From Flavobacteriaceae bacterium (lineage in GTDB: Bacteria > Bacteroidota > Bacteroidia > Flavobacteriales > Flavobacteriaceae), in NCBI GenBank assembly GCA_029238515.1, contig JAQWFW010000032.1:1-64000 (forward strand): a stretch of 64,000 nucleotides of DNA, given 5' to 3'. Both the position numbers and the translations under genes were made by a program. The notes under the pieces are model-generated. The model did not search any database, was not told the origin of the DNA, and saw only the letters and a program-made list of their open reading frames with translations. Shown in pieces: positions 542-4,760 of the stretch (the first letter of the stretch is position 1; each line of letters opens with the position of its first letter).

Positions 542-895
542 TTATTTTAATGCTACTTCAGATTTTTCGTCCCATTCAATAACGTTACTTATTTTGGAAT
601 CTTGAAAGTCAACTTCTTTTAAAGTATCTTCTGACCAAAAGAACCATTTCCCTGATTTAATCCCGTTTTCATAATATCCTTGTGACAGTTTATTCCCATT
701 ATTATCATAGCTAGTCCAAAAACCAACTAAGACACCATCTTTATTAAAGGTTCCTTTTTGTGAGACCTCTCCGTTTTCATGATAATACGTTGCGCTTATA
801 AGTTCTCCATCAACATGAAATAATGGAGATTTAAAATCTTGGGCGCTAACGGTTACACCAATGAATGAGAGAGCTGCAATTATATATATTTTCAT
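542..895 (-). CDS. Exported MORN/YwqK-like repeat protein
   Basis: Signal peptide (MKIYIIAALSFIGVTVSAQ), repeats of the type YHENGEVSQKGTF / YDNNGNKLSQGYYENGIKSGKW. Confidence 0.7.
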   Translation of the reverse strand: MKIYIIAALSFIGVTVSAQDFKSPLFHVDGELISATYYHENGEVSQKGTFNKDGVLVGFWTSYDNNGNKLSQGYYENGIKSGKWFFWSEDTLKEVDFQDSKISNVIEWDEKSEVALK

Positions 896-931
896 GATAT
901 TATTAATTTATTTTACAATATTATGTATTAT

Positions 932-970
932 TTTACAATAAATCAACATAAAATTTACATTGGCTTAACA
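932..970 (+). promoter_or_regulatory. Putative PHO box: four TTnACA-like half-sites at exact 11-bp period
   Basis: TTTACA 932-937, TCAACA 943-948, TTTACA 954-959, TTAACA 965-970; 11-bp direct-repeat phasing as in PhoB/PhoP boxes. Confidence 0.6.
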
Positions 971-1017
971 TTGTAATCTAAAGTAAAGCTAGATTTATTA
1001 ATAATTACATAACAATT

Positions 1018-1092
1018 ATGTTACAATACAGTCATGCTTGGTTATTGAATTTGAAATGTCTTAGACAATTTTTATTCATTATTATTTTTTAG
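1018..1092 (+). CDS. Candidate 24-aa microprotein MLQYSHAWLLNLKCLRQFLFIIIF
   Basis: ATG..TAG between a PHO-box-like array and an orphan intrinsic terminator; below the ORF-track length cutoff. Confidence 0.35.
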   Translation: MLQYSHAWLLNLKCLRQFLFIIIF

Positions 1093-1128
1093 TTTTTGTC
1101 GACTACAATAAGATGAATTAATAATTAT

Positions 1129-1157
1129 GACTGCCTTGGCCAGGCAGTCTTTTTATT
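1129..1157 (+). terminator. Orphan intrinsic terminator (GACTGCCT-TGGCC-AGGCAGTC + T5)
   Basis: 8-bp perfect stem, 5-nt loop, T-tract; no annotated + strand gene upstream. Confidence 0.8.
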
Positions 1158-1162
1158 GAAAT

Positions 1163-1190
1163 TTAATGCTTAAGAAACATTAAGTTAACA
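1163..1190 (+). promoter_or_regulatory. Putative PHO box upstream of porin
   Basis: TTAATG 1163, GAAACA 1174, TTAACA 1185 at 11-bp period, followed by GATTTTTG (-7-like) at 1200-1207. Confidence 0.5.
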
Positions 1191-1237
1191 TTGGAGTTGG
1201 ATTTTTGCAGTGACAAAAACTAATATCCAAAATAAAA

Positions 1238-2440
1238 ATGAAAAAAATTCTATTATTAATTCCTATTCTTTTCTTATCAATCAATACTCAAGCTCAAGAA
1301 ATTAGCGATACTTCTTTCGGTAAGGGACTTATCAACTTCGTCGCAAAGGACAGTACATTCAGTGTAAAATTTGCGCCAAGATTTCAGGTACGTTCAATGT
1401 CGTCTTGGGATCACAACGGTGATATCTACGCAAACCCAGAGCATAATTTTATTGTTCGTCGTGCTCGACTCAAATTTGATGGATTTGCCTATAATAAAAA
1501 TCTAATTTATAAAATTGAATTAGGGCTGTCCAATAGAGATATTTCTGGAGCAAACGCTTTTAACCGAAATACACCTCGATACATTTTAGATGCGGTTATT
1601 AAATGGAAATTTGCTAAAAACTGGGAGTTTTGGGCAGGACAAACCAAGTTGCCTGGAAACGTAGAGCGTGTAGTTTCTTCAGGTAACTTACAGCTGATTG
1701 ATCGTTCTTTGTTAAATAGCCGTTTTAATATCGACCGTGATTTAGGTATTCAACTTCGTCACAAATCAAACTTGGGTGGAGACTTTTTGATGCGTGAAAA
1801 ATTCTCTATATCACAAGGTGAGGGTAGAAATGTGACCGAAGGTAATGAAGGAGGTTTACAATATACCGCTCGATTAGAGCTTCTTCCTTTTGGAGCATTT
1901 AAATCTAAGGGTGATTACAGTCAATCCGATTTGAAACGAGAAGAAAAACCAAAATTAATGCTTGGGTTTACATACAACTTCAACGAAGAGGCTGTAAGAG
2001 AAAGAGGGTTTGCTGGAGATTATATGGTAAGAGCAGATGAAACCATTTATGGAACAGACCAAACAACCATTTTTGTTGATGCAATGTACAAATTCAACGG
2101 ATTTTCATTTATGGGTGAATATGCAAATCGTACTGCAGATAACGAAATTGCCACAGAAGTTGATGGAGTAACACCAACAGGCGATGTTGTTTTAACGGGA
2201 AATGCATTGAATTTGCAAGCGGGATATTTGTTTAAAAACAATTATGAAATTGCTGCGCGTTTTACAACGTTAGAATTCGAATCGGTGACTGGAAAAGACC
2301 CTACAAAACAGTATACTTTAGGATTTAATAAGTTTGTTGTTGGGCATAAATTAAAAATACAAAGTGATCTTAGTTACACAACCGTTGATGGCGAAGCCGA
2401 TAACATTACATTTAGACTCGGATTTGATCTTCACTTTTAA
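1238..2440 (+). CDS. Porin, phosphate-selective porin O/P family
   Basis: Signal peptide; typical OprP-like barrel protein (RRARLKFDGFAYNKNLIYKIELGLSNRD..), C-terminal F; adjacent to PiT transporter. Confidence 0.85.
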   Translation: MKKILLLIPILFLSINTQAQEISDTSFGKGLINFVAKDSTFSVKFAPRFQVRSMSSWDHNGDIYANPEHNFIVRRARLKFDGFAYNKNLIYKIELGLSNRDISGANAFNRNTPRYILDAVIKWKFAKNWEFWAGQTKLPGNVERVVSSGNLQLIDRSLLNSRFNIDRDLGIQLRHKSNLGGDFLMREKFSISQGEGRNVTEGNEGGLQYTARLELLPFGAFKSKGDYSQSDLKREEKPKLMLGFTYNFNEEAVRERGFAGDYMVRADETIYGTDQTTIFVDAMYKFNGFSFMGEYANRTADNEIATEVDGVTPTGDVVLTGNALNLQAGYLFKNNYEIAARFTTLEFESVTGKDPTKQYTLGFNKFVVGHKLKIQSDLSYTTVDGEADNITFRLGFDLHF

Positions 2441-2474: not shown

Positions 2475-4760
2475 ATGATATTTGCCAATATAGCTCAAAT
2501 TAGTACTATGGATAATATATATATATTTATGTTGATTGCCATCACAGTCTTGGCAGCAGTAGACATTATCGTTGGCGTCAGTAATGATGCTATTAACTTC
2601 TTGAACTCAGCAATTGGTTCAAAAGCTATTTCTGTTCGCACCATCATGATTGTAGCAAGTCTTGGTATTTTTGTTGGAGCAGTGTATTCAAGTGGTCTTA
2701 TGGAAGTCGCTCGAAAAGGAATTTTTGTGCCTGCGATGTTCAACTTCAATGAAATCATGTACATTTTTATGGCTGTAATGATTACAGATATTTTATTGTT
2801 AGATTTCTTTAATACCTTGGGGCTTCCCACATCAACTACAGTTTCCATTGTATTTAATTTATTGGGAGCTGCAGTAATCATGTCCTTAATTAAAATCAGC
2901 ACTTCAGACACACAAACATTTGCCGATTTAGGAAATTATATTAATACAAAAAAAGCATTACAAATCATTCGTGGAATTATTATGTCTGTATTTATAGCAT
3001 TCACAGTTGGGGCTATTGTACAGTGGTTTTCTAGGTTGATTTTTACCTTTCAAACAGAAAAGAAAATAAAAAACTTTGGTGCAATCTTTGGAGCTGTAGC
3101 ACTGACCGCTATTACCTATTTTATTTTCTTAAAAGGGCTGAAAGGAACACCATACTATAAAGATTTAAAAGGTACTATTGAAGGTAACGAAATTTACATC
3201 ATAGCCGCTAGTTTCGCATTGTGGCTTGTGGTTTCTTATGTTTTTCAAGCCATTACCAAGAAAACCATTCTCTTGGTTGTGATTGCTGTTGGAACTTTTG
3301 GTTTGGCATTAGCGTTCTCTGGAAATGATTTGGTCAACTTCATAGGAGTACCAATGGCGGCTTACCATTCTTACGAAGCATGGATTGCATCTGGAGTAGA
3401 GGCAACGATGTTTTCTATGGAAGTTTTGGATAAAAAAGTCCCTGCCGAGCCCGTATTACTCTTTATTTCTGGAGGTATTATGGTGGTTACACTTTGGTTT
3501 TCCAAAAAAGCAAAAACTGTTGCAGAAACAGAAATCAGCTTGTCTCGTCAGAGTGAAACTCATGAAAAATTTCAACCCAACATAATCTCACGTGGAATTG
3601 TAAAAGGAGCTACACAATTGTCCAATTACTTTAGTGTAATTGTTCCAAAGTCAGTTCAAGAAAAAATTCAAAAAAGCTTTCAAACTCCTGAGATGGTACT
3701 TACAAAAGACCAAAGTATAGATGCTCCGGCTTTTGATTTGATTAGGGCATCTGTAAATCTAATGGTTGCTGGAATCTTGATTGCAATAGCAACTACAATG
3801 AAACTTCCACTTTCTACAACCTATGTGACTTTTATGGTTGCTATGGGTACTTCTTTTGCCGATAGAGCTTGGGGTAGAGAAAGTGCTGTCTATAGAGTAG
3901 CAGGTGTTTTAAATGTAATTGGCGGATGGTTTGGTACTGCAATTGGTGCTTTTATTGCTTCAGGAATTGTAGTCTTTTTGATCAATATGAATCCTTCAGT
4001 GATTACTCCAATATTTCTTTTACTTACTGCTATTTTATTGTTTAGGAATTATCTTGCTCATAAAAACAAATCTTCAAATTTATCAAATGAAGACAATTTA
4101 AAAAGCTCTGAAAGCAGTTCTATTCAAGGGGTTGTTCAAGAAAGTGCGGATAACATTTCGAATGTTATTAAACGGTCAAATGCAATTTACAACAATGCGA
4201 TCAAGGGGCTTGCTACAGAAAATACTAAGCTTCTAAAAAAGAATAAAAAACAAATCATTAAACTCTCAAAAGAAGTTGATGAATTGAGGGATAATATTTT
4301 CTATTTCATAAAAAACTTGGACGAATCTAGTATTGGAGCAAGTGGGTTTTATATTGATATTTTAGGATATCTTCACGATATGGTTCAATCTTTAGAATAT
4401 ATTTCTAAAGTAACCTATAAGCATGTAGATAATAACCATAAAAAATTAAAGTTCAAGCAAATCAAGGAATTGAGCGAACTCAGCGATGCCATAGAGGGAT
4501 TATTTACCGATGCTAGAGATGCTTTTGAAACGCAGTCTTTTGACAAAATTGAGGCAATCAGTGTACGTAAAAATGACATTTACAAAATTCTGAAATCAAA
4601 TATTGCTTTGCAAGTTAACAGAACAAGAGGTAAAGACGAGTCTAGCCCAAAAAATACAACGCTTTATTTCAACTTACTTCTTGAAACGAAAGATTTGCTC
4701 AAAGCCGCTGGAAATTTATTAGAAGAATATCAAACAGCTCATGATAACTCTATTGAGTAA
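2475..4760 (+). CDS. PiT-family inorganic phosphate transporter with C-terminal PhoU-like helical domain
   Basis: GVSNDAINFLNSAIGSKA and LPTSTTVSIVFNLLGAAV PiT motifs; C-terminal ~200 aa helical region resembles PhoU; alternative start at 2508. Confidence 0.88.
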   Translation: MIFANIAQISTMDNIYIFMLIAITVLAAVDIIVGVSNDAINFLNSAIGSKAISVRTIMIVASLGIFVGAVYSSGLMEVARKGIFVPAMFNFNEIMYIFMAVMITDILLLDFFNTLGLPTSTTVSIVFNLLGAAVIMSLIKISTSDTQTFADLGNYINTKKALQIIRGIIMSVFIAFTVGAIVQWFSRLIFTFQTEKKIKNFGAIFGAVALTAITYFIFLKGLKGTPYYKDLKGTIEGNEIYIIAASFALWLVVSYVFQAITKKTILLVVIAVGTFGLALAFSGNDLVNFIGVPMAAYHSYEAWIASGVEATMFSMEVLDKKVPAEPVLLFISGGIMVVTLWFSKKAKTVAETEISLSRQSETHEKFQPNIISRGIVKGATQLSNYFSVIVPKSVQEKIQKSFQTPEMVLTKDQSIDAPAFDLIRASVNLMVAGILIAIATTMKLPLSTTYVTFMVAMGTSFADRAWGRESAVYRVAGVLNVIGGWFGTAIGAFIASGIVVFLINMNPSVITPIFLLLTAILLFRNYLAHKNKSSNLSNEDNLKSSESSSIQGVVQESADNISNVIKRSNAIYNNAIKGLATENTKLLKKNKKQIIKLSKEVDELRDNIFYFIKNLDESSIGASGFYIDILGYLHDMVQSLEYISKVTYKHVDNNHKKLKFKQIKELSELSDAIEGLFTDARDAFETQSFDKIEAISVRKNDIYKILKSNIALQVNRTRGKDESSPKNTTLYFNLLLETKDLLKAAGNLLEEYQTAHDNSIE

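Follow-up and report, generated by a model that had tools for sequence, protein, structure and literature searches.

Upstream of an outer-membrane porin gene, the window (the whole stretch of 64,000 nucleotides analyzed here, from a Flavobacteriaceae-type genome of 1.7 Mb that is 91% complete) carries a predicted small RNA (sRNA) gene that is very probably a dedicated regulator of the adjacent porin and that, judging from sequence comparisons, most likely acts on it as a brake. The loop of the sRNA, UUAGUUUUUGUC (positions 1089 to 1100), which is near-invariant among relatives, is perfectly complementary to the bases with which the porin mRNA is predicted to begin (GACAAAAACUAAUA, from 1212), and comparison across about 90 genera indicates that the sRNA and leader sequences have changed together. 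This predicted antisense relation of the sRNA to the 5' end of its neighbor's mRNA is the key feature that a preliminary description of the region had missed. We assign a probability of about 0.72 to the full reading, namely, that 1058-1154 specifies a base-pairing sRNA of the Flavobacteriaceae at large that works independently of Hfq, has the adjacent porin as its dedicated target, would be co-induced with it by PhoB, and would serve as a brake.

A conserved sRNA gene upstream of the porin gene

The sRNA is predicted to be about 97 nt long (1058-1154, forward strand) and to consist of a 5' hairpin, a central hairpin with the antisense loop, and an intrinsic terminator. It coincides with a conserved block in relatives, and the window scores 67.5 bits against R1, a covariance model for this sRNA that was built on 48 loci, the window included. 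Its putative sigma-A -7 box, TGAATTTG (1046-1053, forward strand), is of the TAnnTTTG type and aligns with AtaTTTG of relatives. Because the TAnnTTTG box occupies -12 to -5 in the start site map of Flavobacterium psychrophilum (PMC9723704), we predict that the sRNA starts at G1058 and the porin mRNA at G1212, the G of GACAAAAAC. The preliminary description had placed the -7 element at 990-997 (TAGATTTA) and the transcript length at about 150 nt; those letters are present but are not conserved, and the start predicted from the conserved box gives the shorter RNA.

The orphan terminator reported earlier is real, with GACTGCCTTGGCCAGGCAGTC and T5 at 1129-1154 (forward strand) forming an 8-bp stem and a T-run, and compensatory changes are seen at 8 of 8 pairs of the stem among 48 relatives. 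The central hairpin (1074-1118, forward strand) has an outer stem of ATTCAT (1074-1079) and ATGAAT (1113-1118), with AGT and ACT closing the loop TTTTGTCG. Its arms co-vary among 79 distinct sequences (cognate -9.15 versus permuted -6.84 kcal/mol; 0 of 10,000 permutations as good), and GTTTTTGTC is without any change in 48 diverse sRNA sequences. The -7 box and the terminator are kept in relatives, and two genomes have the sRNA at a distance from the porin, which points to an independent transcription unit. These comparisons establish a conserved, structured sRNA gene with predicted promoter elements and a terminator of its own, in agreement with the self-contained, terminated sRNA unit upstream of the porin that had been proposed.

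A microprotein had been proposed as well. The 24-codon ORF at 1018-1092 (forward strand) exists and encodes the 24 aa given for it, but it begins about 40 nt before the predicted and conserved sRNA start, and neither its sequence nor its length nor its frame is conserved in relatives, where it has no counterpart. Counting the window, 14 of 89 loci have an ATG ORF of at least 15 aa starting in the corresponding stretch, but these ORFs resemble one another neither in sequence nor in length, and only 5 of 84 sRNAs contain an ATG ORF of at least 10 codons. We therefore reject the ORF as a gene, and the chance that its 24 aa are the product of the locus is practically nil.

The predicted target (1238-2440, forward strand) encodes a Porin_O_P protein (PF07396; Pfam 45.2 bits, over the cutoff) and is followed, as previously described, by a gene for a PiT-type phosphate transporter (PHO4) with a PhoU-like region at its C terminus (2475-4760, forward strand); the two genes probably form one operon. 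The porin promoter contains a PHO-like box, GAAACATTAAGTTAACATT (1174-1192, forward strand; consensus GgAAACATTaAgTTAACATT across 93 loci), and a -7 box region, GATTTTTG (1200-1207, forward strand, with TTTG at 1204-1207; consensus GTTcTTTGCAgC-GAC across 93 loci). The leader up to the first ATG measures 26 nt in the window (median of 20 nt among loci) and has no obvious SD. On the reverse strand, 542-895 encodes a small secreted MORN_2-like protein (under the Pfam cutoff), and a MORN_2-like gene is also the divergent neighbor (785-1105) in relative L027. A strong terminator hairpin between A and T runs (484-514) is likely common to the 542-895 gene and to a forward-strand ORF ending at 460.

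Distribution among relatives

Upstream regions were compared for 115 orthologous porin loci (the window's genus plus 109 wider-family loci, roughly one per genus). The same order recurs in 91 of these: 11-bp repeats, a -7 box ending in TTTG, a 5' hairpin (reading GTCTTAAGAC in most of the 91), ATTTCATATAATCTATTAGTTTTTGTCGACTACATTATCATGATTT, and an intrinsic terminator, followed by the porin promoter part with second repeats (GgAAACATTaAgTTAACATT), GTTcTTTGCAgC, GACAAAAACTAATA, and the porin start codon. Both sRNA and target site were present in 93 loci and neither in 19, whereas two loci had the target only and none the sRNA only (Fisher P = 1e-19, treating loci as independent; one of the 115 was too short to score). 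When a hidden, divergent sRNA was sought in the 19 loci with neither, no inverted complementarity to the porin leader clearly exceeded that of shuffles; L007 and L098 gave z values of about -3 for leader complementarity but lacked the context of a core or a terminator. Within the window's genus, two MAGs, L004 (about 1310-1409) and L005 (near 700), keep the target site and the terminator and have a decayed or deleted sRNA core, apparently a recent loss.

Scanning for the core and the target separated by 100 to 130 nt returned at least 119 stretches, and the named matches listed were all Flavobacteriaceae or unclassified Bacteroidia/Flavobacteriales MAGs, with none named outside Bacteroidota. 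Genera with culturable strains are among those carrying the pair, namely, Christiangramia, Arenibacter, Maribacter, Formosa, and Winogradskyella. When R1 was run against 298 genomes at the order level and 297 at the phylum level, clear matches (at least 47 bits) came only from Flavobacteriaceae and from MAG contig G522. Matches of about 43 bits and below were set aside as generic terminators, L290 to L293 being without the core. No such sRNA/target pair was found with the relatives of the G522 porin within its own family, so this contig may be misbinned.

No Rfam family exceeded its gathering cutoff in the window (E-value mode) or in five relatives; the lone match to the GibS family (RF04182) lies elsewhere (479-612) and reaches 21.1 bits versus a cutoff of 115. 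Our literature search, in which the coverage of subscription journals was thin, found no description of such an sRNA.

Complementarity to the 5' end of the porin mRNA

The first clue came from a self-comparison of window positions 880-1200, in which 1067-1111 matched 1202-1249 in inverted orientation. The match includes the antisense core TTAGTTTTTGTC (1089-1100, forward strand), which ends in C1100, the base opposite porin +1 (G1212). Pairing in the window is unbroken over porin +1 to +12 and thus covers most of the target site GACAAAAACTAATA (1212-1225, forward strand), which corresponds to +1 to +14 of the porin mRNA as counted from its predicted start site. Across 89 loci, pairing is 100% at +1 to +8 and 97 to 74% at +9 to +14, and it is at background outside the site (about 15% at -2 and 20% at +15). 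Because the background level is already reached at -2, the complementarity begins at the transcript end, outside the promoter.

The duplexes are stronger between cognate partners (mean of -21.3 kcal/mol) than between permuted ones (-17.3 kcal/mol; standard deviation, 0.31; 0 of 20,000 as good) in a permutation in which each of 52 distinct sRNA types was represented by a single pair and phylogeny was left outside the model. The window's own pair brings no co-variation to this result (cognate -16.4 versus a median of -16.7 with other species' sRNAs). Idiosyncratic paired replacements occur in L117, L107, L061, L040, L097, L070, L057, L047, L048, and L037/L038/L043; examples of compensated pairs are TCTTTG/CAAAGA in L117, TCTTAG/CTAAGA in L107, TTACAG/CTGTAA in L040, and AATCGTTAAG/CTTAGAACGATT in L038. 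Even the core is changed and compensated in L287 (G522:C16), where TTTTAGTC occurs with GACTAAAA before a divergent Porin_O_P gene, on a contig of a MAG assigned to another family that was possibly misbinned or transferred. Pairing with the target mRNA is in this way backed by co-variation, and selection on the pairing of the sRNA with the predicted porin 5' end is strongly supported by these comparisons.

Two readings would explain the complementarity without a separate regulatory RNA. In the first, the cause lies in the DNA, the inverted repeat being a protein-binding site or the outcome of quasi-palindrome correction and the RNA being functionless. At one locus, L090 (at the end of contig G132:C107), a 33-bp perfect inverted repeat joins the sRNA with the porin promoter and leader and extends into the -7 region; it appears to be a quasi-palindrome conversion or an assembly artifact. 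A repeat that enters the porin promoter is what quasi-palindrome correction would leave, but in the other 89 loci the complementarity ends at the transcription start and the promoter is not entered. Further, the pairing tolerates wobbles and bulges, one arm lies in the loop of a co-varying hairpin with a conserved terminator after it, and identity is retained over 3 kb where the two parts are far apart (see below), leaving this explanation a very slim chance.

The second is a cis-acting leader or attenuator, in which a long porin mRNA from the upstream promoter would have a leader that folds onto the porin start, with the terminator as the switch. Such an arrangement is suggested by the sRNA and the porin lying on the same strand, usually 100 to 150 nt apart with the terminator between them, but a conserved porin promoter sits between terminator and gene. 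A leader or attenuator should also be contiguous with, and share one transcript with, the gene that it controls, and this is not the case in genomes G088 and G111, where about 3.2 kb separates the sRNA from the porin downstream. Opposite-strand genes for a SulP-type transporter and a carbonic anhydrase-like protein occupy the interval there (L312 and L313). The idiosyncratic complementarity of G088 and G111 (ATCGATT, AATCGTTT) is nevertheless retained at -23 kcal/mol. Pairing that persists over about 3 kb of intervening genes on the other strand is incompatible with a leader or attenuator at these loci; as a general account, we find such a mechanism scarcely credible.

Target range and proposed mode of action

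Outside the locus, the GACAAAAACTAA 12-mer and the start site-anchored pattern TTTG-N2-9-GACAAAAAC both occurred at or under the counts of reversed-pattern controls (22 genomes each). With no surplus of long-complementarity sites elsewhere in these genomes, the porin stands alone as a conserved long target. This bears on the idea that the porin leader is a sponge or decoy that titrates the sRNA while the mRNAs that matter as its targets are others, recognized through shorter seeds. Seeds of 6 to 9 nt are below the reach of the target searches used, which leaves room for such mRNAs, but the absence of any surplus in either search and the idiosyncratic co-variation with the porin leader, which points to a single dominant partner, make the sponge a long shot. 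Hfq (PF17209) was found in none of 12 genomes, whereas control genomes were positive in 5 of 14 cases, as expected.

We propose the following mechanism for the sRNA as a brake on its adjacent porin. When phosphate is scarce, PhoB would probably switch on the sRNA and the porin, each from its own promoter. With UUUUGUCG presented in the loop of its central hairpin, the sRNA would use this loop plus the 5' arm of the stem to pair with the porin leader from +1 to about +14, in some species up to the start codon, as complementarity and co-variation show. Because the leader is so short (about 20 nt at the median and 26 nt in the window), the duplex should exclude the ribosome; blocked ribosome loading would most likely result in less porin and, through operon coupling, PiT synthesis would be lowered too. 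A target co-induced with its brake would constitute an incoherent feed-forward loop, capping or speeding the porin response. The repressive direction is suggested by the short leader together with the behavior of FopS and GibS of Bacteroides thetaiotaomicron, which repress on binding the leader region of a target (PMC11697453).

The main rival to the brake is the same pairing with the opposite sign, i.e., activation through protection of the 5' end, in which the duplex would shield the porin mRNA from 5'-end-dependent decay or remodel the leader and so give more porin. In its favor, the pairing starts precisely at the predicted +1, stopping about 6 nt short of the AUG in most species, and the apparent co-induction of sRNA and target suits activation as readily as it suits a brake. 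However, in so short a leader, the duplex falls within the ribosome landing site, it reaches or almost reaches the start codon in L062, L038, and L287, and the Bacteroides sRNAs mentioned above repress from such a region. Activation is, in our judgment, clearly unlikely, and repression is preferred by analogy with those sRNAs. A bolder claim would be that of a one-to-one pair that has co-evolved over the age of the Flavobacteriaceae and that, free of Hfq, masks or guards the mRNA 5' end (+1 to +14), possibly with a positive sign. We regard this as speculative and on balance doubtful; if true, control by occupying the mRNA 5' end would be a mode undescribed in Bacteroidota.

Possible phosphate control

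PHO control of both the sRNA and the porin is suggested by PHO-like repeats at fixed spacing and by the phosphate genes downstream. In relatives, the PHO-like 11-bp repeats keep a fixed spacing to both the sRNA and the porin -7 boxes. In the window, the sRNA promoter has half-sites with an 11-bp period at 1010-1038 (forward strand; TAACAAT at 1010, TTACAAT at 1021, and a weak TCATGCT at 1032), whose register and 18-nt gap to the TTTG match the TAATATT/TTACATT/TTAACTT repeats of relatives, and we infer that they are a PHO box.

The preliminary description had instead linked the transcription unit to an array of four TTnACA half-sites at 932, 943, 954, and 965. The 11-bp period of that array (932-970) is exact, but only three units read TTnACA, the one at 943 being TCAACA; PHO-like 11-bp repeats do precede the sRNA, but the nearest are the weaker half-sites at 1010-1038. 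The array is the sole one with four units (three exact and one near) in the 64 kb, with about 0.0 expected per Markov-shuffled window, and its counterpart in relatives precedes the sRNA by some 90 nt. The motif CAAAnnTA, which is the TAnnTTTG box of a divergent gene on the reverse strand, occurs near the array in 54 of 88 relatives, as counted without a shuffle control. The array may thus serve the divergent gene at 542-895, or both directions, and this MORN_2-like gene, whose promoter region shares the array, may be part of the same regulon. Relatives also have a conserved cTgattttcA element about 20 nt past the upstream PHO-like array; this element could mark another start site.

Pi depletion did not induce OprP (PF07396), a protein of the PhoBR operon, in Flavobacterium johnsoniae (PMC8115612). 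Should OprP be an orthologue with the sRNA, this result would weigh against the PHO assignment, which calls for caution. Matches to the PHO pattern outside the sRNA/porin locus were few and had no obvious phosphate genes nearby, and so they speak neither for nor against PHO control.

Relation to known sRNAs and significance

To our knowledge, few sRNAs of known function have been described in Bacteroidota outside gut Bacteroides. Enterobacterial sRNAs of the MicF/MicC/OmrA type are Hfq dependent and usually pair around the SD and AUG of several unlinked mRNAs. The porin sRNA shares with them antisense pairing with porin leaders, presumably likewise as a brake on outer membrane protein synthesis, but it differs in that its pairing begins at the +1 of a leader that is very short and has no obvious SD and in coming from a group in which no Hfq was found in 12 genomes. 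FopS is multicopy, has many targets to which it is unlinked, and carries its seed in a single-stranded 5' stretch (PMC11697453), whereas the porin sRNA has one copy, one conserved target, and a hairpin-loop seed, and its gene adjoins the target. Rfp18 of F. psychrophilum is likewise an sRNA from the same bacterial family that is conserved past its species, but it controls metalloproteases and is set apart from the porin sRNA by its description (PMC9723704); we found no published link of Rfp18 to phosphate or a porin. Phosphate-responsive sRNAs of proteobacteria provide a precedent for PHO control of an sRNA, and in the literature on such sRNAs, of which our coverage is incomplete, we found none adjoining and antisense to a phosphate porin.

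Predicting the targets of sRNAs is difficult. In the present case, compensatory changes that arose naturally in about 90 genera, mostly marine, point directly to the target, and they do so at a phosphate uptake gene pair. The sRNA and its porin thereby offer a ready test system for Hfq-independent pairing and for the shut-off of a leader without an obvious SD, and the sRNA ties RNA regulation to the phosphate physiology of abundant marine bacteria.
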